Source of the DNA: a virus
DNA length: 36,195 nt
Reading direction: 5' to 3' (one strand)
Virus record (IMG/VR): IMGVR_UViG_3300042402_001603
Coordinates: 1 to 36,195 of that record
This document shows positions 3,683 through 18,475 of the stretch, piece by piece (the first letter of the stretch is position 1; each line of letters starts with the position of its first letter). A program made the translations under genes and the position numbers. The notes under the pieces were generated by a model. That model was not told the DNA's origin. It did no database searches and saw only the letters and a program-made list of their open reading frames with translations.

Positions 3683-3686
3683 TTAT

Positions 3687-4574
3687 ATGAGTAGATTTGT
3701 ATCAGGTAGAACAATGCGCCCCGGCACTGATCTAGTTAACGGAATAGCTAATACTGGAGCAACAGCTACAGGTGAAATTCTACAAACAGGAACTCCTGCA
3801 GGCACAACCGATCTAGTTACAAAAGGTTATGTTGATGCATTGGTATTAACATTGCCATTACCGGGAAATACACTTTCCTGTAATTGGATAGCAGCTGGAG
3901 ACAGTGGTACTCAGTGTAACGGCACATATACAGTACCTACTGGAGTTTCAAATATTTTTGTACAAGTTTGGGGAGCCGGTGGTGGCGGCGCCATGAATTG
4001 CAGTTGGAAAGTTGGCGCACCCGGTGGCGGCGGCGGCTATGCACACAAGTCGATCGCAGTATCGGCAGGCCAGGTATTTTGCTATTGTGCAGGTCACGGT
4101 GGTCAAGGCGGTTGCTATCCCAGCAGTAAAAACGGACAGACTGGATGCCATTCAGTGTTTTGGGGTCCAACATCAGGTGCCAGTCATTGCGTAATCGGCT
4201 GCGGCGGATGTGGCGGCGGATGCAATGGAACAGGTTATAGCCGCCGATCCTGTGGTGGTTGCTCACAGGGCGGCGACGTTAATATTCAAGGTGGAGAAGG
4301 ACATCAACAAAGCTGTTGTTCCTGCGGCGTAACCAAGTGTGCCAACACCTTATGTTATACAGCTCAAATTTTTGCAGGGGGTTCTTTTTTAGGAGCCCCA
4401 ACAAGATACTTGTATGCTTGTTACGGATTGTGTTGTCCTGGCGCTACACTAGGCGGCCACGGCTGCGGTATGCCTTTTGGCGGCGGTGGCTTTGGCGGCC
4501 TATCTGGATTTTACAGCGGCGGTTGTGCCTGCGGATCGTCCGGTGGCGGCGGCGCAGTAGTAGTCTGGTTTTAA
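3687..4574 (+). CDS. Gly/Cys-rich adhesin-like protein B
   Basis: 295 residues, paralogous to A and C. It starts MSRFVSGRT, has an N-terminal fibre-type segment (TPAGTTDLVTKGYVDAL, about residues 36-52), the YTVPTGVSNIFVQVWGAGGG hinge (about 80-100), and a Gly-run domain with about 24 Cys ending GGGGAVVVWF. The TTDLVTKGYVDAL motif occurs in many phage fibres and probably marks the attachment or trimerisation end. The variable part between the hinge and the C-terminal strand differs strongly from A and C, as expected for receptor-binding loops under selection. Four bases separate it from gene A. Disulfides would be unusual in a cytoplasmically assembled virion, so the Cys could bind metal or oxidise after lysis. 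Confidence 0.7.
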   Translation: MSRFVSGRTMRPGTDLVNGIANTGATATGEILQTGTPAGTTDLVTKGYVDALVLTLPLPGNTLSCNWIAAGDSGTQCNGTYTVPTGVSNIFVQVWGAGGGGAMNCSWKVGAPGGGGGYAHKSIAVSAGQVFCYCAGHGGQGGCYPSSKNGQTGCHSVFWGPTSGASHCVIGCGGCGGGCNGTGYSRRSCGGCSQGGDVNIQGGEGHQQSCCSCGVTKCANTLCYTAQIFAGGSFLGAPTRYLYACYGLCCPGATLGGHGCGMPFGGGGFGGLSGFYSGGCACGSSGGGGAVVVWF

Positions 4575-4583
4575 GGGGAAAAA

Positions 4584-5471
4584 ATGTCACGTTTTGTATC
4601 AGGGTTTACAGAAAGCAATGCTATATTAAATAGGGCACCAGTTTTTACCACAGGCGGGTCAACTACAGGTGTTATCAGCACCTCTGCTACTCCAGCAGGT
4701 AATGCTGTTGCAATTAAAAGCCAGGCAGATCTTTTGGGTACCGGTGCTGGCGGCAGTGCTGTCAACGGTGTAAGTGTACTTAGTGTCATTGGGACAACAG
4801 TTAGTCCAACTGCCTGGTATAGTGGCGGGCCAACAGCACGCGGATGTACTTGGACAGTTCCATCGGGAGTGAATAGAATATTTGCTCAAGTTTGGGGCGG
4901 TGGCGGAGGTGGCGGAGCTCCTGGTTGTAGAGCAATGAGCGAAGCTGGCGGCGCTGGTGGTTATACTCATCAAACATATGCAGTACAGCCCGGCGATGTA
5001 CTTTGTATATGTGCCGGAGGGGGAGGCTGTCGAGGATTTTGTTGTGGTAGACCCGGCGGTAATGGCACAATTAGTTATGTATGTAATTCTACAAGAGGAA
5101 TACAGCTTCGAGCATACCCTGGGGTTGGGGGACGTTGTAGAGTTACAAGTTACGGAAAAGGCGCCGGTGGCAGCGGCAGTGGTGTCGGCGGCGGTTTTAA
5201 TTTAGTGGGGCAATGCAGTCAATCCGACGGCGACTGTTCTTGCCATAAATATTGCGACGGTAGACATCGTGCATATCAATTTGCCATAGGCGGAGCAAGT
5301 TTTGGCGGATTTAATACTACACAAGCTGGACCTGCATTTGCATTATGTACAGGTAGCTGCGGAATGGGAAATACTAGCCCCGGCGGCGGTGGCTCCGGTA
5401 CAGGAATGAGCTATCCAAGTAGTAACAAAGGCGGACATGGTGGCCCAGGCCTGGTCATGATCTGGTATTAA
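4584..5471 (+). CDS. Gly/Cys-rich adhesin-like protein C
   Basis: 295 residues, third of the tandem family. It starts MSRFVSGFTESNAIL, has an N-terminal fibre-like part with TPAGNAVAIKSQADLLG, the CTWTVPSGVNRIFAQVWGGG hinge (about residues 91-110) and a Gly-rich domain with about 15 Cys, ending GGPGLVMIWY. The ribosome-binding site AAGGGG lies just before the ATG. The three proteins share the hinge and the last ~10 residues (G-rich, then hydrophobic, then W and an aromatic or Met), while the middle is diverged. It is the last gene before the modification-enzyme island. A hairpin that could end or attenuate the adhesin transcript follows at 5482-5520. Confidence 0.7.
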   Translation: MSRFVSGFTESNAILNRAPVFTTGGSTTGVISTSATPAGNAVAIKSQADLLGTGAGGSAVNGVSVLSVIGTTVSPTAWYSGGPTARGCTWTVPSGVNRIFAQVWGGGGGGGAPGCRAMSEAGGAGGYTHQTYAVQPGDVLCICAGGGGCRGFCCGRPGGNGTISYVCNSTRGIQLRAYPGVGGRCRVTSYGKGAGGSGSGVGGGFNLVGQCSQSDGDCSCHKYCDGRHRAYQFAIGGASFGGFNTTQAGPAFALCTGSCGMGNTSPGGGGSGTGMSYPSSNKGGHGGPGLVMIWY

Positions 5472-5481
5472 TTAAAATATA

Positions 5482-5520
5482 TTGCACATACTAACTGATT
5501 GAGATATATAGTATGTGCAA
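5482..5520 (+). promoter_or_regulatory. Perfect 12-bp inverted repeat enclosing the halogenase start codon
   Basis: TTGCACATACTA (5482-5493) is the exact reverse complement of TAGTATGTGCAA (5509-5520), with a 15-nt loop. The GTG start (5515-5517) lies in the right arm, so read-through RNA from the adhesins would hide it. The loop and stem base hold GATATATA (5503-5510), 6/8 identical to the late octamer. No U-run follows, so a simple terminator is less likely. Confidence 0.6.
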
Positions 5521-6696
5521 AAAATATCTATAATTGGACGAGGAACAGCTGGCTGCATTTCAGCAGCTCACTTTCTGTATCATACTGATTGTTACGTAGA
5601 CTTTTATTATGATAACAATATCAAACCTCAGGCAGTGGGAGAAGGTTCAACCCTTGTATTGCCCACTAGACTGCATCAAATAATAAATTTTCAACACCAA
5701 GATTTATCTATAATTGATGGCAGTTTTAAATACGGAATAAAAAAAACAGGTTGGGGATCAGGCACCGAATTCACCCATAACTTTGCCCCACCTGGTGTTG
5801 GCTATCACTTTAATGCAATAAAGTTACAAGACCACATTCTAAAAACAATTTCTAACAACCCAAGATTACGCATAATTGAAAATCACATCGATCATAAAGA
5901 CATCGACAGTGAATACATTTTAGATTGTGCCGGTAAGCCTAACAGTTATAACGATTATACAATGTCGGAGTTTATTCCGGTAAATTCAGTTTACGTAACA
6001 CAATGCTATTGGGATTATGCCAAGTTTCAGCACACCCTAACACTTGCAAGACCTTACGGATGGGTTTTTGGTATCCCGTTGCAAAATCGATGCTCAATTG
6101 GTTATCTGTATAACAACAATATTAATTCGTTGGACGAAATTAAAGAAGATGTAAAACACATCTTTGAAGATTATAAATTAACTCCCAGTGATCATACTAA
6201 TTCGTTTAGTTTTCAAAATTATTATAAAAAAAATAATTTTGATGGACGAGCTGCATATAATGGAAACTCGTCATTCTTTCTAGAACCATTAGAAGCAACA
6301 TCAATTTCATTTATGGACAACATCAACAGATTAGCCTACGATGTATGGTTCAACAAACTAGATCAAACAGTGGCCAATCAATATTATAATAAACACATAA
6401 CAGAAATAGAAAATGTTATTATGTTGCATTATTTTGCAGGATCACAGTTTGACACAAATTTTTGGAAATTTGCAAAGTCCAAAGGTGAAACTAATATGAA
6501 ACAGGCTATAAACAATAAAAAATTTATAGAAATGATAGATTTTTCAAAATTGAATAATTCAAAGCTAGCATCAAATGAAGATTTTGGTACGTGGCATCTA
6601 AATTCATTTTATCAGAATTTACACAATCTTGGGTTATATGACAAGTTTGCACAATTGAGAAATTCGCATTCACAATCTAACATACTGCAAAATTAA
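5515..6696 (+). CDS. Flavin-dependent (tryptophan-type) halogenase-like protein
   Basis: 393 residues. The N-terminal FAD-binding motif GRGTAG is at residues 8-13. The segment VGEGSTLVLP (41-50) followed by GSFKYGIKKTGW (69-80) matches the GE-A/S-T-x-x-P and catalytic-Lys region of PrnA-type halogenases, with K72 in the Lys79 position. The hallmark WxWxIP appears as W183-V-F-G-I-P188, with the second Trp replaced by Phe, and FFLEPLEATSI near 257-267 matches the PLES/T segment. Known members chlorinate or brominate Trp or other aromatics using FADH2, halide and O2, and halogenase-like genes occur in cyanophages. This one is shorter than PrnA (about 540). The start must be GTG at 5515, because TAG at 5509-5511 closes the frame. 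Substrate unknown; free Trp, a protein residue or a glycan/lipid aglycone are all open. It needs a flavin reductase, presumably from the host. Confidence 0.78.
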   Translation: MQKISIIGRGTAGCISAAHFLYHTDCYVDFYYDNNIKPQAVGEGSTLVLPTRLHQIINFQHQDLSIIDGSFKYGIKKTGWGSGTEFTHNFAPPGVGYHFNAIKLQDHILKTISNNPRLRIIENHIDHKDIDSEYILDCAGKPNSYNDYTMSEFIPVNSVYVTQCYWDYAKFQHTLTLARPYGWVFGIPLQNRCSIGYLYNNNINSLDEIKEDVKHIFEDYKLTPSDHTNSFSFQNYYKKNNFDGRAAYNGNSSFFLEPLEATSISFMDNINRLAYDVWFNKLDQTVANQYYNKHITEIENVIMLHYFAGSQFDTNFWKFAKSKGETNMKQAINNKKFIEMIDFSKLNNSKLASNEDFGTWHLNSFYQNLHNLGLYDKFAQLRNSHSQSNILQN

Positions 6697-6699
6697 CAA

Positions 6700-6707
6700 A
6701 ATAAATA
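6700..6707 (+). promoter_or_regulatory. T4-type late promoter octamer (leadered class)
   Basis: AATAAATA, 25 nt before the ATG at 6733, followed by a Shine-Dalgarno AGAGGA (6722-6727). It probably starts transcription of the modification island downstream of the halogenase. Confidence 0.5.
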
Positions 6708-6732
6708 TAAGATAGTTTAATAGAGGAAACCA

Positions 6733-7716
6733 ATGAAAAAAGCGATTTTTATTAATGGAGGATTAGGAAGACAAATATGTTCAATTCCTGCATTAGAAAA
6801 ACTTTATGCCACTACTGATGATTTTATTGTTGTAGTAGAAGGTACAGTAGAGGCCTTTCAAGGTCATCCATATCTCTATAGAAAAACTTATCCAATTTGG
6901 ACAAAGAATTTATTTGAAGATCAGCTTAAACACTGCGAAATTGTTACCCCCGAACCCTACAGGCTCAATAGTTATTTCAATCAAAAATCTCACCTTATAG
7001 AAGCATTTGACGAAATCATTAATAATACTACAGACCATTCGGATCTAACCATTCCTAATTTATATCTCAATAAAGAAGAAGAAGTGTATGCTGCTAATAT
7101 TATTAATCAAGCAAAATTAGCCTCAGGAAAAAATAAAATAGTAATAGTGCAACCTTTTGGAAGAAGTGTAATTTACGAAAATGAATTCTTATATGACAAA
7201 TCTAGCAGAAGTTTTAGTAAAGAATTATATTTAGAATTAACCAAACGACTGAGTGAATACTATTGCGTAATAGTAATGAGTGAATTCCCAGTAGCTGAAG
7301 ACAAGTGGTCGTTTAAACCAGCTAACTTAAATATTAGAACATATATGGCGCTGATTGAAACTTGTAATTATTTTATAGGTTGCGATAGTAGCGGACAGCA
7401 CATGGCAAGAAGCTTTAACAAACCTGGCACAGTTATTATGGGTAGTACATTTACAGAAAATGTATCATATCAAAATCATTTCCAAATCTTAGAAAAAGAT
7501 CAGGAAAAAATGTACAGTCCAATACGTATAACAGATTCTGTGCCAGATATTGATCTAGCCGATAGAGCTAACGATACTATAATGGATTTCAGTGAAGACG
7601 AAATCGACAGTATGTATCAAAAAATACAAATAGATATTGAGAAAAAAACAGCCAAGGATATACTACTACCGCCTACTCAAATTTCTGAGAAGCCTGTGCA
7701 ATCGTCATGCTGTTAA
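6733..7716 (+). CDS. GT9-type (heptosyltransferase-like) glycosyltransferase
   Basis: 327 residues with a GT-B layout. The N-terminal Rossmann half opens MKKAIFINGGLGRQICSIPAL (residues 1-21, with GGLGRQI like the GxLGD loop of GT9). The C-terminal half carries IVIVQPFGRS (136-145) and FIGCDSSGQHMARSF (214-228), the D-S/T-G-x-x-H-x-A nucleotide-sugar signature of ADP-heptose:LPS heptosyltransferases. The usual second Pro/Gly pair follows as KPGTVIMGST. It probably transfers a heptose or similar sugar, consistent with HldE/HldD-type genes 7 kb downstream in the same island. The C-terminal tail ends QSSCC and is not part of the GT fold. Acceptor unknown: host LPS core or a phage adhesin. A Shine-Dalgarno AGAGGA lies upstream. 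Confidence 0.65.
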   Translation: MKKAIFINGGLGRQICSIPALEKLYATTDDFIVVVEGTVEAFQGHPYLYRKTYPIWTKNLFEDQLKHCEIVTPEPYRLNSYFNQKSHLIEAFDEIINNTTDHSDLTIPNLYLNKEEEVYAANIINQAKLASGKNKIVIVQPFGRSVIYENEFLYDKSSRSFSKELYLELTKRLSEYYCVIVMSEFPVAEDKWSFKPANLNIRTYMALIETCNYFIGCDSSGQHMARSFNKPGTVIMGSTFTENVSYQNHFQILEKDQEKMYSPIRITDSVPDIDLADRANDTIMDFSEDEIDSMYQKIQIDIEKKTAKDILLPPTQISEKPVQSSCC

Positions 7717-7720
7717 TACA

Positions 7721-8251
7721 ATGTATATAGTTGACAACGAATTATTTGATGAAACATTCATCGAAATGTTTGATAATTATTGCACTGAATCTGTTCCTTG
7801 GTTTTACGGAAGAAAATCAGCATTAAACAAAGACAATCTAATATGGGGATCAACGCTTTACGAACAGGGCGGACCTCATAATTTTTTTGCTGAATATATT
7901 TTAGCTAAGTTTTCAAAAAAATATCAAATGCAGTTTGAGATGATGAGCTGTGTGTTAAACGGGCAGACCAAAGATCAAAACACCTCTTGGCACGTGGACC
8001 TTTATTCTGGAGATTATGATATTGACAACAAATACACACTCGTGTATTATGTTAATAAAGTGTGGAATGATCCAACCGGGCAAACTGAAATAAGACTGCC
8101 TGATGGAGACATTGCAAAAATAAATTTTGAATCAGGGAAAGTAGTATGCTTTCCTAGTAAATATCAGCACTTTGGAGCTCCTCCAAGTAACGATAATGTG
8201 CTAAGAATAACATGTGCTCTTAAATTAAATTTGTTAGGAAGAATAGAATAA
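7721..8251 (+). CDS. 2OG-Fe(II) oxygenase-like protein 1
   Basis: 176 residues; the start ATG is 5 nt after the GT9 stop, giving a normal oxygenase N-terminus (MYIVDNELFDETFIEMF). An in-frame ATG at 7637 would only add residues antiparallel in meaning to the GT9 tail. The double-stranded beta-helix signature is visible: SWHVDLYSGD with H91 and D93, a strand TLVYYVNKVWNDPTGQTEI, then GKVVCFPSKYQHFGAP with distal H150 and 2OG-binding R162 in LRIT. This matches the H-x-D...H...R iron/2-oxoglutarate site of prolyl-hydroxylase-like enzymes. Expected reaction: hydroxylation of a protein residue or sugar, coupled to decarboxylation of 2-oxoglutarate. The substrate cannot be told. One base separates it from the carbamoyltransferase gene. 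Confidence 0.72.
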   Translation: MYIVDNELFDETFIEMFDNYCTESVPWFYGRKSALNKDNLIWGSTLYEQGGPHNFFAEYILAKFSKKYQMQFEMMSCVLNGQTKDQNTSWHVDLYSGDYDIDNKYTLVYYVNKVWNDPTGQTEIRLPDGDIAKINFESGKVVCFPSKYQHFGAPPSNDNVLRITCALKLNLLGRIE

Positions 8252-8252
8252 A

Positions 8253-9950
8253 ATGAAAGATACTTATATTTTAGGAATGTCTAGAGGACATAACAGCAGT
8301 GTTTGCTTACTTAAAAACGGCGAACAAATATTTTATATAGAAGAAGAGCGACTAACACGACATAAGCATGACGGAACTCCGTTTAGAGCATTAGAAGAAA
8401 CTAAAAAATTTACAGATCGAATCGATGCTGTTGCAATAGCACACACAGATAATGGTGCTCCCCAATCAGACTGGTGTTCAAATAATGTCTATGTAGAGCT
8501 TTTAAGAAAACATCATCTTATCGATCACAATACTCCGGTATTTTTGATGGGACATATTCATCATCAACTGCATGCCGCCTGCGCATTTTACAATAGTGGG
8601 TTTGATAGTGCTGTTGCTATTATTGTTGACGGTGCCGGATCGAGATATGACGGCACTAATAATATGGGTATACCAATTACATTTTGGGAAGCAGAATCAA
8701 TTATCGAATGTGGTTATCCAACAGAGTTTACCTCTCTTTACAAAAATTATCAAACAAATTACGGAACAGCAAGACAACCTATCAAGATAGAAAACGTTGA
8801 TGATGGTCGATGCTGGATTGCTGATCAACCCGGTATTGTTAAGTGTTATGAAGCTGTTACACAATATTGTGGATTTTCAGCAATTGAGGCAGGAAAAACA
8901 ATGGGCCTTGCCCCTTACGGCGAATCCGACAGTAGAATCCCAGATTTTTTCTTGTCTAATGGTGCAAGTAACCGTAATTTAATTACACCTACTATCCCAT
9001 CTGCAGCAGAAATTAATACAAATAATTACGAATTTCTTGCCGATCCTACGTTGGTCAATCAAAAAAATCTTGCCTATAAATTACAATTAGATACCCAACA
9101 AGCAGTACTTGATTTAATTAAAAAGGGAATTGAATTATCGGGCAATAAAAATGTAGTTATTGCAGGAGGATATGGTTTAAATTGTGTGGCAAATTATTTC
9201 TATAAGAAAAATCTTCCGGCAGATATTAACTTGTATGTAGAGCCTATTAGTCACGATGCCGGCACATCAATCGGTGCTGCAAGACTTGTGCATTTTAAAG
9301 AATTTCAAAATGACGTAAAACATCCACAGACTAATATATATCACGGGCCAAAATATACTATTGACGTTGATCAATTAATAGAATTAGATGATTTTAAAGC
9401 AACTACAGTATCGTACTCAGATATTGCTGGACTCATAAGAAATAAAAATATCGTTTGCATGTTCCAAGGTGGCAGCGAAGCTGGTCCACGTGCTTTGGGA
9501 AATCGAAGCATTTTATTTGATCCTACTGTGCCTAACGGCAAAGACATTGTTAATCAAGTTAAACGTCGTGAGTGGTTTAGACCATTTGCAGGTACGGTAC
9601 TAAAAGAAAATGTACACGAATGGTTCGATATGGCAGGAATGGAAGAAAGTCCGTTTATGATGTATGCAGTAGATGTAAGAAAAGAAAAGTTAGGTGTTGT
9701 GCCGTCTATTACTCACGTGGATGATACCTGCCGAGTTCAAACTGTTACAGAAGAACAAAATCCTCATTACTACAAGTTAATCCAAGAATTTAATAAATTA
9801 AGCAATGTGCCAATTTTGTTCAATACAAGTTTTAATCTAGGCGGAGATCCACTAGTAGAAACTATCGACGATGCATTAAGCACTTTAAGAAAAAGTGATT
9901 TAAAATACTTGTACCTACCTGAAGTTTCTTTGTTGTTGGAAAAAAAATAA
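8253..9950 (+). CDS. Carbamoyltransferase (NodU/CmcH/TobZ family)
   Basis: 565 residues, the usual length of the family. The N-terminal Kae1/ASKHA-like domain has MKDTYILGMSRGHNSSVCLL and the metal-site segment GHIHHQLHAACAF (residues 100-112), followed by VDGAG. The C-terminal domain has GPRALGNRS (411-419), REWFRPFAGTVL and FNTSFN, all hallmarks of O-carbamoyltransferases that use carbamoyl phosphate and ATP via carbamoyladenylate. Known substrates are sugars of Nod factors and antibiotics, and a 7-O-carbamoyl heptose occurs in Pseudomonas LPS core. Carbamoyltransferase genes are also found in cyanophages. Next to heptose genes and a GT9 transferase, a carbamoylated sugar is a reasonable guess. 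The stop overlaps the next ATG (TAATG at 9948-9952). Confidence 0.88.
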   Translation: MKDTYILGMSRGHNSSVCLLKNGEQIFYIEEERLTRHKHDGTPFRALEETKKFTDRIDAVAIAHTDNGAPQSDWCSNNVYVELLRKHHLIDHNTPVFLMGHIHHQLHAACAFYNSGFDSAVAIIVDGAGSRYDGTNNMGIPITFWEAESIIECGYPTEFTSLYKNYQTNYGTARQPIKIENVDDGRCWIADQPGIVKCYEAVTQYCGFSAIEAGKTMGLAPYGESDSRIPDFFLSNGASNRNLITPTIPSAAEINTNNYEFLADPTLVNQKNLAYKLQLDTQQAVLDLIKKGIELSGNKNVVIAGGYGLNCVANYFYKKNLPADINLYVEPISHDAGTSIGAARLVHFKEFQNDVKHPQTNIYHGPKYTIDVDQLIELDDFKATTVSYSDIAGLIRNKNIVCMFQGGSEAGPRALGNRSILFDPTVPNGKDIVNQVKRREWFRPFAGTVLKENVHEWFDMAGMEESPFMMYAVDVRKEKLGVVPSITHVDDTCRVQTVTEEQNPHYYKLIQEFNKLSNVPILFNTSFNLGGDPLVETIDDALSTLRKSDLKYLYLPEVSLLLEKK

Positions 9951-10564
9951 TGCTCTATATTGATAATGCTTATCAACAATGGATCGATTATTTACTAATT
10001 AATAAGGACAGTCCTAAAACTGCTAGAGAATTTATGTGGACGCAATCTGAATGCGAAAAAATAAAACAAGCAAGCAACAGTCTAGAACTTGTTCCGGCAC
10101 AAATTAATTCAGAAGATCAGACGATTGACGAATCGTTTCGAAAAGTTAATCGATGGCTTCTACCAAACAACGAAAAATTTTCTTGGATATATACCAAGGT
10201 ATGTAACACACTGCTATCAGCCAACAAAGATTTTTGGAATCTTGATGTTAATCTTATTGAAACAATAGAATTACTGCAATATAAATTTGATCCAACCTCG
10301 ACTATTCAAAGTCATTATAACAAACATAGTGACTTTGGCGGAAATTTTACCACACGGAAAATATCATACACTGCATTATTGTCAGATCCATCTGAGTTTT
10401 CAGGTGGAGATTTAGTATTATATCTTAGAACTGATATTACACTACCAAAAGAGCAAGGACAAGTTATATTGTTTCCGTCATTAGCATTTCATGAAGTATT
10501 GCCAGTTACACAAGGCGAAAGATGGGCGCTAGTTACTTGGATGAAAGGAAGACCTCTACGATGA
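9950..10564 (+). CDS. 2OG-Fe(II) oxygenase-like protein 2 (PKHD/PiuC type)
   Basis: 204 residues. The helical N-terminal ~110 residues are followed by a jelly-roll domain with YNKHSDFGG (H126, D128), ISYTALLSDPSEFSGGDLVL (138-157), a GQVILFPSLAFHEVLPV segment (distal H181), and GERWALVTW (R191). The pattern closely follows PKHD-type hydroxylases such as PiuC/YbiX. Iron-binding H-x-D...H and 2OG-binding Arg are all present, so the protein is probably active. It overlaps the carbamoyltransferase stop (TAATG) and the sulfotransferase start (ATGA), so the three are translationally coupled. Substrate unknown. Confidence 0.78.
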   Translation: MLYIDNAYQQWIDYLLINKDSPKTAREFMWTQSECEKIKQASNSLELVPAQINSEDQTIDESFRKVNRWLLPNNEKFSWIYTKVCNTLLSANKDFWNLDVNLIETIELLQYKFDPTSTIQSHYNKHSDFGGNFTTRKISYTALLSDPSEFSGGDLVLYLRTDITLPKEQGQVILFPSLAFHEVLPVTQGERWALVTWMKGRPLR

Positions 10565-11421
10565 AAGATATACATTTTATTATAGGTCTTCCTAGAACAG
10601 GTTCTACAACACTGACTGCTGTTCTTGATCAAAATCCAAATTTTTATGCTACAGGAACTACACCAGTTCCTAGCATTGTTGAGTCTATTGTAAAAAATAT
10701 GGGACCGCAGTCAGATTTTACATCTACTGATCATAAGGATTTAAAAAAACGATTCTACGGAATGGTAGAAGGCGCGATTCGAGGCTGGCACGAAACTGAA
10801 ACTGATAATCCTGTAATTTTTAGTAAAGGTAGACCTTGGATAATGTTTTATGACGAGTTAAAAACAATATATCCAAAGGCAAAATTTATTTTTTGTGTTC
10901 GAGATCTACGAGGAATTATATTAAGTTTTGAAAAACTTTTACCTGAATTTCCGTATCTAAGATTTTCTTTACCCGAATATCAAGGACTTACTCCTCATCG
11001 GTTAAATCAAAAAGATAGAATAGAATTTTGGCTTAAAAATCCTATGAGTGCCCTCGGCATTTGTTTACCGTTTTTTTCAAAGTTCTATGATCTTTATAAA
11101 AAATGTCCTGACGATTTCATTGTTATGCGGTACGAGGATCTTACTAAAGATCCGCAGACTACAATAGCATCATTATATAATTCGTTAGGGTATGACCATT
11201 TTCAACATGACTTTACGAATTTAAATCATAAAATAAAAGAATACGATTCGGCATATTGGGCGTATGTTGATCATACAGTAGGTAAAGAAATCGTATATCG
11301 AGAGCCAGACTATTCAGTTTTAGGCGAACATAATCAGGGAATCATAGATGACAACATTGAATATTACAAACTATTCTATCCAGAAATTTTCAGACATACT
11401 TCAAAACGTAGTCGTTTTTAA
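10561..11421 (+). CDS. PAPS-dependent sulfotransferase-like protein
   Basis: 286 residues from the ATG at 10561, which overlaps the upstream TGA as ATGA. An earlier in-frame ATG at 10522 would bury the start inside the oxygenase. The 5'-phosphosulfate loop is GLPRTGSTTL (residues 9-18). The 3'-phosphate motif is visible around residues 108-125 as FIFCVRDLRGIILSFEK, including the conserved R and S. A later FIVMRYEDLTKDP segment also fits the family. These enzymes move sulfate from PAPS to hydroxyls or amines of sugars, lipids or tyrosine. The downstream gene starts 74 nt before its end. Confidence 0.8.
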   Translation: MKDIHFIIGLPRTGSTTLTAVLDQNPNFYATGTTPVPSIVESIVKNMGPQSDFTSTDHKDLKKRFYGMVEGAIRGWHETETDNPVIFSKGRPWIMFYDELKTIYPKAKFIFCVRDLRGIILSFEKLLPEFPYLRFSLPEYQGLTPHRLNQKDRIEFWLKNPMSALGICLPFFSKFYDLYKKCPDDFIVMRYEDLTKDPQTTIASLYNSLGYDHFQHDFTNLNHKIKEYDSAYWAYVDHTVGKEIVYREPDYSVLGEHNQGIIDDNIEYYKLFYPEIFRHTSKRSRF

Positions 11422-11926
11422 AAATATTCTGTCAGCTGAAACTTGCAATCAAATTGCAACATATTCTCGCACATTATTCGAAGAAGGCAAAATGTCAAAA
11501 AACATGGCTGGAGATAATCGATGGCGTTATCGAATTCTAGATAACAAATTTAAACCTATTGACGACATTATTACATCATTTAACGAAATATTTAATCAAC
11601 ACAACGGTACTCCTGATACTAAAATTGGAAATATTATTACCTATAATATTGCACCAAGTTACATACAACGCCATAAGGACGACTACGGTCCGTTTCATCT
11701 AAGAATTAATTTAATTACGGAAAAACCAGAGTTTAGTGGCAATCCGATTATAGATGGATTACTTTACAAGATTTTACCAGGTGATGGTTGGGCATTTAGT
11801 CCGTCGCACACGGCTCACGGAACTACAATACTATCTACTGACAGTAGAGTTAATTTAAGTATGGGTTGGAATTTTGACAATTTAGAGGATTACAAAAATG
11901 CATTTATTTCTATTAGTTCCCAATAA
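11348..11926 (+). CDS. 2OG-Fe(II) oxygenase-like protein 3
   Basis: 192 residues. The ATG at 11348 lies inside the end of the sulfotransferase gene (74-nt overlap); no ATG or GTG placed nearer the junction keeps the conserved N-terminal strand (VVVFKNILSAETCNQI, about 21-36). The catalytic set is Y-I-Q-R-H109-K-D111, distal H157 within SPSHTAHGTT, and R167 in DSRVNLSMGW. H154 is an alternative distal ligand. The arrangement fits 2OG-Fe(II) hydroxylases. It overlaps the downstream fusion gene by 29 nt. Both long overlaps are typical of the compact packing of this island. Substrate unknown. Confidence 0.65.
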   Translation: MTTLNITNYSIQKFSDILQNVVVFKNILSAETCNQIATYSRTLFEEGKMSKNMAGDNRWRYRILDNKFKPIDDIITSFNEIFNQHNGTPDTKIGNIITYNIAPSYIQRHKDDYGPFHLRINLITEKPEFSGNPIIDGLLYKILPGDGWAFSPSHTAHGTTILSTDSRVNLSMGWNFDNLEDYKNAFISISSQ

Positions 11927-13157
11927 CAGCGGCAGTTCTATATTACATGATCTAATTGCAACCTCTCCCGATGTTGCAATCTTACCAAGTGAAGGACAGT
12001 TTTGCGATAACTTTGTCGGACCACTTGCTTACCAGTATGGTATTGCACATTTTTTTACTAAAAAAGAAGATATATTTAGAAACAAAAAAAATTATGAATG
12101 GGAAATAATTAAACGTCAATGGAAATTTCATTGGAATAATTCAAATCCCAACGCAACTGTATTTTTACAAAAAAGTCCTCCAGATATATTACGAGATGAT
12201 ATGTTAACGGAAGAGTTTGAGGATACTAAGTTTATTATAATGATTAGAAATCCTTATGCTATGGTCGAAAGTATTTTACGTGCAAATCCAACGGCATCGT
12301 TAGTAGATGCGGCTACTCATGCAATTAGATGTTTAGAAATACAGCTTGAAAATAGTGAAAAATATTTAAATGATTTAGTTTTTAAATACGAAGATCTAAC
12401 AAACAATACTACTGAAATTGTTAAACAGATAGAAGAATATTTAAACATTACTAGAATAGATAATAATAGAATTTTTAATACCAAAGGATACTCTTCAAAA
12501 ATTTTAAATATGAACGAGTTTCAAATTAAAAAATTATCGGACAAACAATTAAAAATTATAAATTCTGTATTTTCTAAAAAAATGACAGTATTGTCTGAAT
12601 GCGGTTATGAACTAATTGAATCAGAAAATTTTAATTTTAAATTTATATCTAATTTAAATGTAGAGGTCTTAAAAAGTAAGCTAGTAGGCCTTACTGACAA
12701 TGTTTGGAATGAATTTACGTTCAGACAAGAAACTTATGATGTTCATGCAAAGACACTGACTATTCCTTTAATTTTTAGTAAAGATTTTGAATCAGAAAAT
12801 GTAACTTATCATCCTTATTTTGAACGTTTTACTGATGAGATAAAAGTATTAACTGCGATCTTTGAAGAGAAATTAGGTTTTGGATATATAACCAGGGCAA
12901 TTTTGGTAAATTTAAAAGCTAATAGCACTATACCCGAACATATAGATTCTGGCAGTAGTTTAGACGCCTGCCACAGAATGCATATTCCTCTAATTACAAA
13001 TACACAATGTGATTTTAGAGTTGGTTTAGAAACAATACAAATGAAAGCTGGAGAGATATGGGAAATCAATAACACTAATAAGATTCACAGCGTAAAAAAT
13101 CTCAGTAACGAAGATAGAATTCATTTAATAGTTGACTGGATAACTATTATAGATTAA
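11898..13157 (+). CDS. Sulfotransferase-like / Asp/Asn-beta-hydroxylase-like fusion protein
   Basis: 419 residues in two parts. Residues 1-~240 look like a sulfotransferase: P-loop-like VPNNSGSSILHDL (7-19), KFIIMIRNPYAMVESIL as the 3'-phosphate motif (near 111-127), and VFKYEDL. Residues ~255-419 look like an aspartyl/asparaginyl beta-hydroxylase type 2OG oxygenase: IPEHIDSG with H348 and D350, HRMHIPL, GEIWEINNTNKIHSV with distal H397, and DRIHLIVDW. The first part departs from the standard PRTGST loop, so its activity is less sure than that of the gene at 10561. A single protein could sulfate and hydroxylate the same acceptor in turn. The start ATG at 11898 overlaps the previous gene by 29 nt. 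Confidence 0.62.
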   Translation: MHLFLLVPNNSGSSILHDLIATSPDVAILPSEGQFCDNFVGPLAYQYGIAHFFTKKEDIFRNKKNYEWEIIKRQWKFHWNNSNPNATVFLQKSPPDILRDDMLTEEFEDTKFIIMIRNPYAMVESILRANPTASLVDAATHAIRCLEIQLENSEKYLNDLVFKYEDLTNNTTEIVKQIEEYLNITRIDNNRIFNTKGYSSKILNMNEFQIKKLSDKQLKIINSVFSKKMTVLSECGYELIESENFNFKFISNLNVEVLKSKLVGLTDNVWNEFTFRQETYDVHAKTLTIPLIFSKDFESENVTYHPYFERFTDEIKVLTAIFEEKLGFGYITRAILVNLKANSTIPEHIDSGSSLDACHRMHIPLITNTQCDFRVGLETIQMKAGEIWEINNTNKIHSVKNLSNEDRIHLIVDWITIID

Positions 13158-13167
13158 GGAATATGTT

Positions 13168-13797
13168 ATGAATAATATATATAGTTGTAATTTCCCTAAC
13201 GTGGGTTTTATGGGATGTGATTTATCGGATGACGAATTTTTACCAATCTTAGAAGAAGCATTGGAAATACAAAAAAATTTTAGTCAAGCACAACCTATGA
13301 ATGACAAGTTAGTTGGCCATATTGAACACGAATACTTAATGATCAAGACTCATAATCTTATCGAAAATTTGAGTACACAAATGGCATTAAAATATCAAAT
13401 AGCATATCAGTCATTTAAAATTCCTGAAAAATCTAAATTGTCAATGGACGGTGCGTGGATCAACTTTCAAAAAAAACATGAATTCAATCCACTACATAAT
13501 CATTCTGGTGATTTTAGTTTTGTAATATATGTTAAAATTCCGTATACTATAGAAGAAGAGAAAAAATATAGTGCAAAAGTTCCGACACACTTACAAGTTC
13601 CGGGCAGTTTTCTCTTTCATTATACAGATGCATTGGGGCAGATTGCACCGTGGTGTATTCCTACTGATCAATCGTATGAAAAGCGAATGATAATATTTCC
13701 TGCAAAAATGATGCACACTGTTTATCCGTTTTACTCATCGGACGATTATAGAATTTCTATTTCAGGAAATTTAAGAGTAGAAGCTATCGATAGTTGA
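13168..13797 (+). CDS. 2OG-Fe(II) oxygenase-like protein 4 (TIGR02466-like)
   Basis: 209 residues after an AAGGA ribosome-binding site. The core is FNPLHNHSGDFSFVIYVKIP (around residues 109-128), in which H-x-H plus the acid that follows takes the place of the usual H-x-D, as in the putative oxygenase family TIGR02466. Further on are RMIIFPAKMMHTVYPF with the distal His and DDYRISISGNL with the 2OG-binding Arg. Related genes are frequent in cyanophages and other marine T4-like phages. The long insert before the FPAK strand (THLQVPGSFLFHYTD) resembles a lid. No substrate is known for this phage family; a protein or glycan hydroxylase is inferred. Confidence 0.65.
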   Translation: MNNIYSCNFPNVGFMGCDLSDDEFLPILEEALEIQKNFSQAQPMNDKLVGHIEHEYLMIKTHNLIENLSTQMALKYQIAYQSFKIPEKSKLSMDGAWINFQKKHEFNPLHNHSGDFSFVIYVKIPYTIEEEKKYSAKVPTHLQVPGSFLFHYTDALGQIAPWCIPTDQSYEKRMIIFPAKMMHTVYPFYSSDDYRISISGNLRVEAIDS

Positions 13798-13816
13798 CAA
13801 AATACAGGCAATTAAA

Positions 13817-14179
13817 ATGAGACTAACGGGATTTGTTAAGAAAGGTTGGGGCCACGAATTAATTTGGGCAACTACTGACAAATATTGCGGAAAAATAATG
13901 GTATTTGAAAAAGTCGGATCAAAGTTTTCTATGCACCTTCACAAAGAAAAAGACGAAACTTGGTTTATTAATTCTGGTAGTTTTAAATTAAGAATATTAG
14001 ATACTAACACAACAAATATAACCGAACAAATACTAAAGCAAGGCGATATATGGCATAACCCGCCTATGTTACCCCATCAAGTAGAATCCTTAGAAGAAAA
14101 TTCTAGTATTTTTGAAGTTAGTACACCAGATTCAGTTGAAGATAATTTTAGAATATTTCCAGGAGACAGTCAACAATGA
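13817..14179 (+). CDS. Single-domain cupin (mannose-6-phosphate-isomerase-type)
   Basis: 120 residues with a textbook cupin metal site: H40-L-H42 and E47 in motif 1 (SMHLHKEKDETWF) and H87 in motif 2 (HNPPMLPHQVES). The N-terminus (FVKKGWGHELIWA) resembles the C-terminal cupin of type II phosphomannose isomerase/GDP-mannose pyrophosphorylase enzymes. Such free-standing cupins in sugar clusters act as sugar-phosphate isomerases or epimerases, or only bind a sugar phosphate. Here it sits directly upstream of a HAD phosphatase and heptose genes, so a sugar-phosphate step is plausible. It cannot be equated with GmhA, which has a different fold. The stop overlaps the next ATG (ATGA). Confidence 0.65.
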   Translation: MRLTGFVKKGWGHELIWATTDKYCGKIMVFEKVGSKFSMHLHKEKDETWFINSGSFKLRILDTNTTNITEQILKQGDIWHNPPMLPHQVESLEENSSIFEVSTPDSVEDNFRIFPGDSQQ

Positions 14180-14661
14180 CGACTTTGTACTTAGACATGG
14201 ACGGTGTTGTAGCAGACTTTAACGGTTATGCTAGCGAAATTTTAAATAAACAACAGATTATTCACGATCGATGGGATGACGAGGATTGGAATGTATTAAA
14301 AGAAAATCCTAGACTCTATAGAAATTTAAAAAAAACCAAAGAAGCCGATCTAATTGTAGAGTTTTGTAAAACATATTGCAAAAAGAACAAATATCAACTA
14401 TTGTTTTTGACTGCGGTTCCTAAGGCTAATGACATTTCGTGGGCCTTTTATGATAAAGTATTATGGATACAAGAACACTACCCAGATATTCCTGTTATGT
14501 TTGGTCCGTATAGCAAAGACAAACACACGCACTGTATACCCGGCGATATTTTAATCGATGATCGTACTAGCAATATTAACGAATGGAATAATGTCGGTGG
14601 TGTTGGTTTATTATACAAAAACAACTTTGAAGAAATTCGAAATATATTATTAAATGACTAA
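14176..14661 (+). CDS. HAD-family phosphatase (5'-nucleotidase/NT5C-like)
   Basis: 161 residues. HAD motif I is DMDGVVADF with nucleophile D7 and acid/base D9. Motif II is FLTA (T79), a Lys candidate follows (K114/K116), and motif III is DILIDDRTSN (D128, D129). The layout resembles deoxyribonucleotidase-like HADs found in phages more than GmhB, which has a DRDGT motif I and a zinc loop not seen here. In this position, between a cupin and the HldE-type genes, it could still supply the missing heptose-1,7-bisphosphate phosphatase step; that is a hypothesis. It overlaps the cupin (4 nt) and the adenylyltransferase (8 nt). Confidence 0.68.
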   Translation: MTTLYLDMDGVVADFNGYASEILNKQQIIHDRWDDEDWNVLKENPRLYRNLKKTKEADLIVEFCKTYCKKNKYQLLFLTAVPKANDISWAFYDKVLWIQEHYPDIPVMFGPYSKDKHTHCIPGDILIDDRTSNINEWNNVGGVGLLYKNNFEEIRNILLND

Positions 14662-15058
14662 AGTTTTTGTAAACGGAACGTTTGATATTGTTCACTTAGG
14701 ACATATAAAACTTTTAGAATATGCAAGGTGTTATCCTAATTCGTTTATTCTTGTAGCTATAGATAGTGATATTAGAGTAAAACAGTTGAAAGGTAATAAT
14801 CGTCCGATAAATTCACAATACGACCGTTTAAATTTATTATCGGCATTGAAATTTGTAGATCAAGTAGAAATTTTTAATACTGATCAAGAACTCATAGATT
14901 TAATCAAAGATTTTAAACCCGATGTGATGGTTAAAGGCAGTGACTATCAAGGTCGGCCTATTATAGGTGCAGAATACTGCAAAGAGATAAAATTTTATGA
15001 CAGAGTTGAACCATACTCAACAACAAAAACAATACAAAATATTACTCATAGGGGATAA
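14654..15058 (+). CDS. hldE (C-domain): ADP-heptose synthase adenylyltransferase domain (HldE C-domain-like)
   Basis: 134 residues, a free-standing nucleotidyltransferase of the RfaE2 type: VNGTFDIVHLGHIKLL with H14-x-x-H17, IDSDIRVKQLKGNNRPI (37-52), then PDVMVKGSDYQ (89-99) and the STT motif (122-124) before the C-terminus. The LKG-x-x-RP and VKG-x-DY elements favour heptose-1-phosphate adenylyltransferase over glycerol-3-phosphate cytidylyltransferase. Known role: heptose 1-beta-phosphate plus ATP gives ADP-D-glycero-heptose and PPi. In E. coli it is the C-terminal half of HldE; here it is separate and lies upstream of the kinase, overlapping it by 62 nt. Ligation to the kinase domain is lost, so the product presumably diffuses between two proteins. 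Confidence 0.75.
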   Translation: MTKVFVNGTFDIVHLGHIKLLEYARCYPNSFILVAIDSDIRVKQLKGNNRPINSQYDRLNLLSALKFVDQVEIFNTDQELIDLIKDFKPDVMVKGSDYQGRPIIGAEYCKEIKFYDRVEPYSTTKTIQNITHRG

Positions 15059-15755
15059 TTGTACAGACATATATCAATATGGCACTGTTGATCGTATTAG
15101 TCCCGAAGCCCCAGTTCCTGTATTTAAATTTAGTCACGAAGAAAGCAGACCCGGCATGGCCGGCAATGTCTGTAATAATCTAATAACCTTAGGGTGCAAT
15201 GTTTATTCTGTATACGGAGAAAACAGTACAAAGACTAGATTAATTGATATTAGAAGTAAACAACAGATTGTAAGAATTGACAATGATGTAATCTCTACAC
15301 CAGTAAAGATTAACTACAACTTAGACACCTATGATGCTATTGTGGTTAGTGACTATAACAAAGGAACAGTTAGCTATGAGCTAATAGAACAATTGATTGA
15401 AACCAAAATTCCTGTATTTGTAGATACAAAGAAAACAGACTTAGATCGTATGCAAGGAGCGTGGGTTAAAATTAATGAACTAGAGTATAGCAAAATTAAA
15501 AGTGAATGCAGTGGGCTTATTGTTACACGTGGTCCTAGTGGTGCAGATGCTATACATCAGCAGTATAGTTCCAAGGCACCAAAAGTAGAGGTGGTAGACG
15601 TTACAGGTGCAGGAGATACTTTTCTTGCTGCACTGGCCTACAATTACCTACACACTAAAAATATAACAAGAGCAATGGATTTTGCCAACCTAGCTGCTGC
15701 TGTTACAGTTCAACACGTTGGATGCTATGCTCCAACAATGGAAGAAATTTTATGA
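14997..15755 (+). CDS. hldE (N-domain): D-glycero-heptose-7-phosphate kinase-like (HldE N-domain, PfkB/ribokinase fold)
   Basis: 252 residues. Its N-terminal part matches HldE closely: YKILLIGDNCTDIY (13-26), VDRISPEAPVPVF (31-43), ESRPGMAGNVCNNL (49-62). The PfkB signature DVTGAGDTF is at 201-209 with catalytic D207. Known role: ATP-dependent phosphorylation of heptose-7-phosphate at C1. It is about 65 residues shorter than the HldE kinase domain, with a deletion between GENSTK (75-80) and IVRID, a segment that normally helps form the lid and dimer interface. The ATG at 14997 lies inside the adenylyltransferase gene; it is the only ATG that keeps the first beta strand. It overlaps the epimerase gene as ATGA. 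Confidence 0.78.
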   Translation: MTELNHTQQQKQYKILLIGDNCTDIYQYGTVDRISPEAPVPVFKFSHEESRPGMAGNVCNNLITLGCNVYSVYGENSTKTRLIDIRSKQQIVRIDNDVISTPVKINYNLDTYDAIVVSDYNKGTVSYELIEQLIETKIPVFVDTKKTDLDRMQGAWVKINELEYSKIKSECSGLIVTRGPSGADAIHQQYSSKAPKVEVVDVTGAGDTFLAALAYNYLHTKNITRAMDFANLAAAVTVQHVGCYAPTMEEIL

Positions 15756-16621
15756 TAGTATTAACAGGTGCGGGTGGCTTTATTGGCAGCGTAGTGTTGG
15801 GATATTTAAACTCTCAACAAATAACTGATATTCTTATAGTTGATGATTTGCCTTATGAAAATCAATATAAAAATTTAATCGGTAAACAGTATAAAAGGCT
15901 GTTATCAATAGATGATGTTGATTTAACTAATGAAAATATCACCGGAGTGATACATATTGGTGCTAATTCGAACACTTTAGAAAAAAATTGGAGTTCAATT
16001 TATGCCTCAAATATTAACTCAACAAGAAAGTGGAATACATTTTGTAAAGAACGCAACATACCTTTTATTTTTACTTCTAGTGCAGCCGTTTATGGTAATG
16101 GTCAGGGCCCGATGAATCAATATGCGTTTAGCAAACTACTCAGCGAGAATGAAATAGACGGAGTTATTCTTCGACTATTTAACGTATACGGACCTAATGA
16201 ATATCACAAAGGTAGAATGGCTTCTTCAATTTTGCATTGGGTTGATCAACTTGACAAGACCGGGGAAATAAAAATATTTGAAAACAGTAAGAATTATTTT
16301 AGAGATTTTATATGGGTCGAAGATGTAGCAAAAACCATATATCATTTTATGTATAAAAATTATCAACCTGGAACTTACGATCTAGGCACTGGAAATAAGG
16401 TAGATTTTGAAACTATTGCAGATGTGATTATAGATCATACAGGCTCAGGAACAAAAAAATTCATAGATATGCCAGCTGATCTTAAAAATCAGTATCAAAT
16501 TAATACTCTTGCTGATACTAAATCGCTGATCAGTTTAGGAGTAAACGTTGAGAATTTTATTCAAATTAATACAGGTATCGAAAAATACATAAAGTATCTA
16601 TCAAACTTGCGTTACATTTAA
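15752..16621 (+). CDS. hldD: ADP-glyceromanno-heptose 6-epimerase-like (HldD), short-chain dehydrogenase fold
   Basis: 289 residues from the ATG at 15752, which overlaps the kinase stop. The NAD(P) loop is TGAGGFIGS (5-13), followed by TDILIVDDL. The catalytic set is S109/S110 in TSSAAVYG and Y124-x3-K128 in QYAFSKLL. The specificity region follows E. coli HldD: LRLFNVYGPNEYHKGRMAS, then IFENSKNYFRDFIWVEDVA, YDLGTGNKVDFETIADVI and DLKNQYQINTLADTKSL. This is a stronger match to HldD than to general UDP-galactose epimerases. Known role: ADP-D-glycero- to ADP-L-glycero-D-manno-heptose. It is shorter than E. coli HldD (310) by loop trimming in the middle. It is the last gene of the island, and its stop codon abuts the next late promoter. 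Confidence 0.8.
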   Translation: MIVLTGAGGFIGSVVLGYLNSQQITDILIVDDLPYENQYKNLIGKQYKRLLSIDDVDLTNENITGVIHIGANSNTLEKNWSSIYASNINSTRKWNTFCKERNIPFIFTSSAAVYGNGQGPMNQYAFSKLLSENEIDGVILRLFNVYGPNEYHKGRMASSILHWVDQLDKTGEIKIFENSKNYFRDFIWVEDVAKTIYHFMYKNYQPGTYDLGTGNKVDFETIADVIIDHTGSGTKKFIDMPADLKNQYQINTLADTKSLISLGVNVENFIQINTGIEKYIKYLSNLRYI

Positions 16622-16633: not shown

Positions 16634-18475
16634 ATGGCCAAAATACCCGTATACGATGCAGTAAGAATAATTCCTAGAGATTCCGGATTTCTAAATAGAA
16701 ATTCAGGGTCAAGGGGTGAAGTTTTTTACGATCAAGCAGCTAACACTCTCAGAATTTACAACGGATCGACAGTCGGCGGTGTAAGTTTAGCAAAAGCAGA
16801 TTTAACCAACGTTTCCAACTCAGACTTTCTTTCTAAGGCTAATTCGGCAGGATTTAGCGGCGGCGTTCAGACAGGAGTAGCTGGCAAAATAGCCTATTAT
16901 CCCAGCAACGGGTCTCAGGTAAACGACCTCACAGAACTTAGTTGGACTACTAATACAAGTACGTTATCATTATTGGGAATCTTAAATGTTACAGGTCAAA
17001 AAAATCGTATAAGATTTCATTGGGATACATTAGCAGATCTCATTAGTGAAGTTTCACCGGTAGACTATCATGGTATGGTAGCACACGTACACGATACAGG
17101 AAAATTGTACTATGCTCATGCAGGTGCTTGGGTGCCAGTAGCCAGCGAATCCAGTTTGCCTAATTCGTTTAACACTGTGGCTGTTGCAGGACAGAGCTCT
17201 GTGATAGCTAATTCTACTGCCGACACACTCACACTAGCTGCTGGTTCTAATATTACTATTACCACCGATGCTAGTACAGATACTATAACTATAAATTCAA
17301 CCACTAGCACAGGGTCTATTACGTTTGTAGGAACAACTATAGATTCAGCAGACAGTTCCACCATCACATTTACTCCCACAGTGGCCTTTGACAGTGATGT
17401 GGTTGTGGGTAATGAAATTGTGTTTGCAGACGGTTCAAGACAGGCTACATCAGCTGTGGGTGTTCCAGGACCTACGGGACCTATTGGACCAACAGGTGCA
17501 TCGGGATCAGGATCAGGCGATGTGCTCAGTGCAGGTGGCAGCTATGTAGATAACCGAATTGTGCGCTACGATGGTACAACAGGCACCATTATACAGGTCA
17601 GTAGTGCCAGTATATCAGATGCCGGATTACTGACTGCTACCAGTTTTAGCGGTAATGGCAGTTTGATAACTGCTTTGGATGCCACTCAATTGACTAGTGG
17701 TACTGTACCCGATGCACGTTTTCCAGTCACACTGCCAGCTGCTAGCGGTATAAATCTCACCGCCTTAAATGCTACAAATTTAAGCAGCGGCACTGTTCCA
17801 GTCTTGAGGTTGGGCACAGCAGGCACAAGAGATGCTACTACATATCTAAGAGGCGACAACACATGGGCCACAGTCGCTGGAGGTGAAGGTGGAGCAGCAT
17901 CTAATAGTTTTGCAACCATAGCGATAGCTGGACAGAGTTCAGTAGTAGCAGATTCAGCCACAGATACACTAACGTTAGTGGCTGGTACAGGTATAACACT
18001 TACAACTAATGCTGGTACAGATACGGTGACAATCACTAGTACTGCATCAGCGGGCGCTACAGCGTTCACCGAGCTGAGCGATCGTGCAGATCTTACCGTT
18101 GACCAATTTTATCTACCAGCAATTACGAGACTCAATGTGACTAATAACGGCGCTAGTGCATACAGATTTGATCAATACGGCAGCGACGACGACCCTACGA
18201 TATATGCAATAAATGGAACTACCATAGCTTTTAACCTCAATGTAATTGGTCATCCTTTCTTGATACAGAATAATACAGGCACAAATTACAACGCTGGATT
18301 GATTCACGTTACCACAGGAGGCACAGTGACTACGGAATCAGCTGCTCAAGGAAAGACATCCGGTACATTGTATTGGAAAATTCCAAGCGACATATCCGGT
18401 AACTACCGATATCAGTGTAGTGTTCATGCTGCTATGGTAGGTACTATTGTAGTTAAAAACTTTATTAGTATTTAA
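16634..18475 (+). CDS. Tail-fibre protein with collagen-like run and C-terminal cupredoxin-like domain
   Basis: 613 residues. The N-terminal part (MAKIPVYDAVRIIPRDSGF) looks like a virion-attachment end. Two diverged ~48-residue repeats begin at residues 177 and 424 (NSF[NA]T[VI]A[VI]AGQSSV). A short collagen-like run GPTGPIGPTGASG lies near 278-290, and typical fibre segments follow (SGNGSLITALDATQLTSGTV; TTYLRGDNTWATV). The last ~110 residues form a cupredoxin-like domain: IGHPFLIQN with H540, GTLYWKIPSDISGNYRYQC, then C595-x2-H598-x2-M601 and MVGTIVVKNF. His, Cys, His and Met in this order are the type-1 copper ligands, and the C-x2-H-x2-M spacing is that of amicyanin. Its function could be metal binding or a structural receptor-binding tip. 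It ends 4 nt inside the convergent minus-strand gene. Confidence 0.75.
   Translation: MAKIPVYDAVRIIPRDSGFLNRNSGSRGEVFYDQAANTLRIYNGSTVGGVSLAKADLTNVSNSDFLSKANSAGFSGGVQTGVAGKIAYYPSNGSQVNDLTELSWTTNTSTLSLLGILNVTGQKNRIRFHWDTLADLISEVSPVDYHGMVAHVHDTGKLYYAHAGAWVPVASESSLPNSFNTVAVAGQSSVIANSTADTLTLAAGSNITITTDASTDTITINSTTSTGSITFVGTTIDSADSSTITFTPTVAFDSDVVVGNEIVFADGSRQATSAVGVPGPTGPIGPTGASGSGSGDVLSAGGSYVDNRIVRYDGTTGTIIQVSSASISDAGLLTATSFSGNGSLITALDATQLTSGTVPDARFPVTLPAASGINLTALNATNLSSGTVPVLRLGTAGTRDATTYLRGDNTWATVAGGEGGAASNSFATIAIAGQSSVVADSATDTLTLVAGTGITLTTNAGTDTVTITSTASAGATAFTELSDRADLTVDQFYLPAITRLNVTNNGASAYRFDQYGSDDDPTIYAINGTTIAFNLNVIGHPFLIQNNTGTNYNAGLIHVTTGGTVTTESAAQGKTSGTLYWKIPSDISGNYRYQCSVHAAMVGTIVVKNFISI

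Follow-up and report, generated by a model that had tools for sequence, protein, structure and literature searches.

A fibre-like phage tail protein with a predicted C-terminal cupredoxin domain and a complete set of type-1 copper ligands

Results

Organisation of the locus

The window, by which the whole analysed stretch of 36,195 nucleotides is meant here (positions 1 to 36,195 of the IMG/VR virus record IMGVR_UViG_3300042402_001603), contains on its plus strand at 16634-18475 an ORF for a tail-fibre-like protein of 613 amino acids, which matches PHROG 677 and carries a cupredoxin domain. The N-terminal segment (aa 1-69, MAKIPVYDAVRIIPRDSGFLNRNSGSRGEVFYD..., 16634-16840) was delimited by comparison with relatives; it is 75% identical to aa 1-69 of L014 and is also common to L009, L066 and L095, whereas L002, L005 and L022 are without it and yet have the same C-terminal part. 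This segment is probably the virion-attachment end. A shaft repeat was located by cross-matches in relatives, with the first copy at aa 177-223 (SFNTVAVAGQSSVIANSTADTLTLAAGSNITITTDASTDTITI..., 17162-17302) and the second one, also covered by the PHROG match, at aa 423-470 (17900-18043). The cross-matching stretches in relatives correspond to aa 177-240 and aa 423-478, and no repeat of at least 30 bases was found at the DNA level. Residues 276-291 (GVPGPTGPIGPTGASG, 17459-17506) form a short stretch of collagen-like sequence, which suggests a trimeric fibre.

The cupredoxin domain, as delimited by AlphaFold2, Foldseek, VIA-align, the profile comparison with PDB and hhalign, covers aa 495-611 approximately (nt about 18116-18466), and its strands begin at about aa 497. 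An earlier note, made from the sequence, had placed a cupredoxin-like domain with complete type-1 copper ligands at 18248-18475; the C-terminal location was right, but the domain starts earlier. The first ligand, His540 (CAT, 18251-18253), lies in the conserved H-P motif as IGHPF, aligned to the ligand His of PetE, and is directly followed by Pro541 (18254-18256), which is near-invariant among 257 distinct domains and is replaced by Asn in PetE. Cys595 (TGT, 18416-18418), assigned from conservation and alignment as the thiolate ligand, is the sole cysteine of the domain in the window, and His598 (CAT, 18425-18427) and Met601 (ATG, 18434-18436; axial) were assigned as the other ligands from conservation and from hhalign against PetE. 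The ligand loop reads CSVHAAM, with a C-x2-H-x2-M spacing that is invariant in the alignments, and it is directly followed by aa 602-608, which the model shows as its last strand (E123-129 in the construct of 134 aa). The four residues, the amicyanin spacing and the place just before the last strand were thus found as the note had described them. C-x2-H-x2-M was seen just once in the window when all reading frames of 100 aa or longer were considered, which speaks against a chance occurrence, and a second cupredoxin domain was not found in the window, with only weak shaft matches of 6.3 and 2.4 bits.

Elsewhere in the window, three consecutive ORFs at 2768-5471 (304, 295 and 295 aa, respectively) are glycine-rich and cysteine-rich and alike in layout, and they are probably fibre or adhesin proteins. 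The region between the fibre genes (5515-16621) holds a non-structural cluster including a cupin and an NDP-sugar epimerase, in which possible flavin-dependent halogenase, carbamoyltransferase and sulfotransferase-like ORFs were recognised by eye.

Fold and cupredoxin membership

The C-terminal domain of the 613-aa protein is predicted from sequence profiles and structural models to be a cupredoxin with the complete type-1 ligand set. With an alignment of 70 sequences, AlphaFold2 gave a pLDDT of 93.6 and a pTM of 0.83 for the domain, so the structure prediction proposed in the note returned a high-confidence cupredoxin fold, a Greek-key beta-sandwich; the prediction from the single sequence (pLDDT 30.5) was uninformative. 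All 50 matches listed by Foldseek against PDB were cupredoxins or multicopper enzymes. The best superposition by VIA-align was with a Cu nitrite reductase domain (Z 11.6, 108 residues, 2.3 A), and the N-terminal cupredoxin domain of 2dv6 was aligned at Z 10.9 with 22% identity.

Profiles of 18 and 70 sequences were compared with the PDB sequences, and solely cupredoxin-type copper proteins were among the matches listed. For the 70-sequence profile, the 48 matches at E<=0.01 were without exception blue-copper, CuNIR or CuA-type chains, with a best E value of 3e-6, 1.2e-5 for plastocyanin and 6.4e-5 for amicyanin. Cu nitrite reductases, plastocyanin, amicyanin, rusticyanin, pseudoazurin, azurin and CuA domains were all represented in the PDB profile matches, and nothing meaningful was obtained from PDB by phmmer, whether with the domain alone or with the full-length protein. 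By hhalign the domain was aligned with phage PetE (E=2.1e-7, probability 93.6), with H540, C595, H598 and M601 all in register with the PetE ligands. Judging from the predicted fold and this alignment, the four residues would come within bonding distance of a single site. In the reverse search, petE was recovered from two cyanophage genomes by the 70-sequence tail-domain profile, and tail proteins were picked up by Pfam Copper-bind in three of six records.

At E<=0.01 the NCBIfam plastocyanin, NCBIfam amicyanin and Pfam Copper-bind models matched 29, 26 and 34 of the 70 members, respectively. The domain in the window scored 15.6-15.9 bits against Pfam PF00127 Copper-bind (E=0.017-0.022), below the curated cut-off of 21.2 bits, and is therefore filed in the cupredoxin superfamily and not as a PF00127 member; the related phage tail domains scored 14.4-21.0 bits and one Bacteroidota member 23.9 bits. 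The plant 'At5g54830-like domain' of Pfam (PF25489) also matched 14 of the 70 members at E<=0.01 (best 6.7e-6), from which PF25489 may be a related cupredoxin. The structural matches to the model in BFVD included A0A481Z6J5 and A0A481YVH3, which are small 'beta-sandwich proteins' of Pithovirus/Marseillevirus-like genomes (giant viruses).

Conservation and joint loss of the ligands

Among 257 distinct, mostly complete domains, 243 carry all four ligands His/Cys/His/Met, each position being 96-98% conserved, and the loss of Cys595 or His540 among homologues, which the note had named as a result that would speak against a copper site, is accordingly rare. The family evolves fast, and few of its residues are conserved as strongly as the four ligands. 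In an 18-sequence alignment, in which the others are 32-81% identical to the window sequence, no columns are invariant except those of the four ligands, P541, Y593 and G603, and the full set is kept in 46 of the 54 resolved domains at <60% identity. A disulphide as the reason for the conservation of the cysteine was rejected, since 210 of the 247 domains bearing the ligand Cys are without any other Cys.

Departures were found in eight of the 251 domains with all four positions readable, of which four have lost four ligands, two have lost three, one has lost two and one has lost one. When the losses were shuffled among sequences, none of 20,000 trials reached the observed count of losses of at least three ligands, with the same outcome when only the 54 readable domains with <60% identity were taken, although this figure is not a formal probability as the sequences are related. 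The joint loss of three or four ligands points to one cooperative metal site under selection rather than four independent residues. The losses are spread across different proteins, several degenerate copies lying in the same ORF as an intact copy (L302, L315, L324 and L306). The ligand-less copies retain the remaining domain signature, from which the metal is not strictly required for folding.

In tail-associated ORFs such as L211, L223, L229, L256 and L268, between two and four cupredoxin copies are present, and some copies with an erased metal site lie beside intact ones.

Family distribution

The search for the same module in other phages, as proposed in the note, found it in many phage tail proteins. 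By tblastn with the domain, 280 phage records were obtained at E<=1e-3, nearly all of Synechococcus/Prochlorococcus phages, with one podovirus (P-GSP1); their annotations were 'baseplate wedge tail fiber connector' (gp9), tail fibre, S8 peptidase or hypothetical protein. Scans of viral contigs with five queries gave 26, 269, 390, at least 574 and 50 relatives, respectively, the counts overlapping between queries and at most 80 relatives per query being kept. Among phages, members of the family are carried by marine T4-like cyanophages and by uncultured phages, where they belong to tail fibres, to S8-peptidase-like tail proteins or to gp9 baseplate connectors.

In 96% of the 257 distinct domains the residue after the first ligand His is Pro, and this HPF form appears from the sequences to be a distinct cupredoxin subfamily. 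Asn at this position is typical of blue copper proteins, where it helps to hydrogen-bond the region of the Cys ligand. HPF-form domains also occur in Bacteroidota and in a small number of other bacteria, where several of the proteins begin like lipoproteins, which makes the module common to proteins of the cell-surface type and phage tails. In one Bacteroidota lipoprotein-like domain (L338:3001-3312), Tyr stands at the position of the ligand Cys, which is kept in the near-identical L334.

A second, more divergent type, HP(F/L/I)xFS...YYxCxxHxxMG, was seen in cyanophage baseplate wedge and peptidase S8 proteins (L028:4100-4260, L035:4500-4640, L040:1430-1560 and L032:4530-4660) and is probably another cupredoxin subfamily.

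Position in the protein and the gp9 label

In the clade of the window protein, the intact domain forms the exact C-terminus behind at least three different N-termini, as expected for an exchangeable distal part, and the description as a fibre-like tail protein with a C-terminal cupredoxin is supported. That the domain ends the fibre, as the note had it, agrees with this clade but does not extend to the family, in which only 161 of the 257 distinct domains lie within 12 aa of the reading-frame end. Of the same 257, 86 have more than 100 aa downstream, being internal or repeated with up to four copies per ORF, so that a tip role is not general; for the window protein, the cupredoxin domain may sit at the fibre tip.

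The match to PHROG 677 (E=4.9e-47), a family labelled 'baseplate wedge tail fiber protein connector', is best over aa 400-611; it spans the shaft repeat and the cupredoxin domain and not the gp9-type N-terminal baseplate-binding part, and no PHROG match was obtained for aa 1-89. Judging from these alignments, the gp9 label of the window protein derives solely from the shaft repeat and the cupredoxin. All 70 members of the domain alignment match PHROG 677, of which the cupredoxin is the C-terminal part (profile about 301-412), and the label may therefore spread to unrelated tail proteins via the common cupredoxin domain.

Discussion

Comparison with known copper and metal proteins

The predicted domain has the same cupredoxin fold as amicyanin and plastocyanin (PF00127), with a His and then Cys-His-Met before the last strand. 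It differs from them in lying within a tail protein, in having no signal peptide and in having Pro for Asn after the first His, and the window domain and most of the phage members tested fall below the Pfam cut-off. The C-x2-H-x2-M loop is shared with amicyanin, a spacing that does not by itself make the phage domain an amicyanin. Amicyanin is the periplasmic electron acceptor of methylamine dehydrogenase, and nothing similar is expected on a fibre. The N-terminal domain of the Hyphomicrobium Cu nitrite reductase (2dv6) and those of two-domain laccases were aligned by VIA-align at Z 10.3-10.9 over about 96-101 residues at 2.2-2.7 A; these are enzyme domains, whereas the phage protein has one cupredoxin domain in the window and no type-2 or trinuclear site was identified.

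PHROG 677 (cyanophage gp9, T4-GC 398) has a cupredoxin as its C-terminal part in common with the window protein, which it matches through the shaft repeat and the cupredoxin only. The Bacteroidota HPF-type domains (L334, L336, L341 and others) carry the same signature, GHPF...C-x2-H-x2-M-x-G, in cellular proteins with apparent lipoprotein signals, unlike the phage fibres. The auxiliary gene product PetE of cyanophages has the same fold and ligand set and is encoded in the same phage genomes as the tail domains, but it is a soluble protein of its own, in which the motif is PHN and the loop, C-x2-H-x4-M, is longer. Metal-containing tail tips are known from T4 gp37 and P2-type spikes, in which octahedral His-only iron sites are formed in trimers. 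These proteins and the 'Ferrojan Horse' likewise place a metal ion in a host-facing tail protein, while the site in the window is a predicted mononuclear, Cys-containing cupredoxin site inside one domain.

Interpretation of the metal site

In the reading that we favour, with some confidence, the C-terminal domain is a genuine cupredoxin, the metal site of which is intact; it belongs to a large family of modules in the tail-fibre, baseplate and tail-associated proteins of marine T4-like and other phages, is copper-bound in the virion and has a structural or adhesive use rather than one in electron transfer. Family membership, the predicted fold, ligand conservation and joint ligand loss come from the present data, and copper as the metal, the time of its loading, the trimeric display and the structural or adhesive role are what we infer. 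Having no signal peptide, the domain would be produced in the cytoplasm of the host, unlike ordinary cupredoxins, which are exposed to copper only beyond the cytoplasm. Copper would be loaded during or after lysis, the hosts having plastocyanin and other copper proteins. Free copper is very low in the cytoplasm and in seawater, which makes copper loading uncertain, and the site may instead take up a different soft metal, for example Zn(II). The bound ion would pin the strand of the first His to the Cys-His-Met loop and the last strand, and the pinned strands would give a rigid, stable domain with a structural or adhesive surface.

Stabilisation of the tip, metal sensing at the cell surface and binding to a copper-related receptor were the candidate roles put forward in the note. 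A metal-bearing site could instead be used for receptor binding or host uptake, via a copper-handling protein or a copper-binding glycan on the host surface. The C-terminal place of the domain behind interchangeable N-termini in the clade of the window is the usual one for receptor-binding parts, the same family occurs in Bacteroidota lipoprotein-like proteins that are probably at cell surfaces, and the 'Ferrojan Horse' proposal of iron in phage tails offers a parallel; many family members, however, hold the domain internally or beside peptidase-type proteins, and conservation of the ligands extends even to proteins with a baseplate-connector annotation; we regard this use as rather unlikely. 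The erasure of all ligands in some copies that keep the rest of the domain signature would suit a plain beta-sandwich module, in which the site is empty or holds another metal (Zn) and conservation reflects an ancient folding constraint. High conservation together with joint loss fits a shared metal function better than such a constraint, and the beta-sandwich reading is unlikely.

Less credible again is a redox role, either electron transfer or a thiol/copper switch acting on the host envelope at attachment or DNA injection: the ligand set is that of electron-transfer cupredoxins and is kept entire, including the axial Met, but no redox partner or companion gene was seen, virions are without metabolism, and Pro in place of the PetE Asn after the first His should, from general knowledge, alter the hydrogen bonding of the thiolate. 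A chance arrangement of His/Cys/His/Met in a non-cupredoxin fibre domain, to which the sub-threshold Copper-bind score and the poor single-sequence model might have pointed, is contradicted by the family-alignment results (PDB profiles, AlphaFold2, Foldseek, VIA-align and hhalign) and has almost no credibility left.

Novelty and significance

Phage PetE (plastocyanin) is already well known (PMC3037559). The S-SM1 proteome comprises 41 virion proteins, and T4-GC 398 is not named in the main text of that paper (PMC3037559). No paper on a cupredoxin, plastocyanin or type-1 copper site in phage tail proteins was found in the literature covered, outside which most subscription journals lie, and the module in phage tail proteins is apparently unreported so far. 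PHROGs describes it as a tail connector only, and the scores of the phage domains just under the Pfam cut-off would explain why it was overlooked.

A wider reading, in which marine phages regularly build functional, copper-loaded blue-copper domains into the fibres and baseplates of their virions and these domains form a separate HPF family shared with Bacteroidota surface proteins, is offered tentatively, as it falls somewhat short of being probable. If it is true, these virions would be copper-carrying particles, the attachment or stability of which would depend on copper. If the sites hold copper, marine phages of very high abundance would carry a metal cofactor in their tail proteins, and a conserved module that now goes under labels such as 'hypothetical protein' or 'baseplate wedge tail fiber connector' would gain a function. 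The copper chemistry of the ocean and copper-rich hosts would then be linked to phage attachment or particle stability, and the 'Ferrojan Horse' idea for iron would have a parallel in copper.
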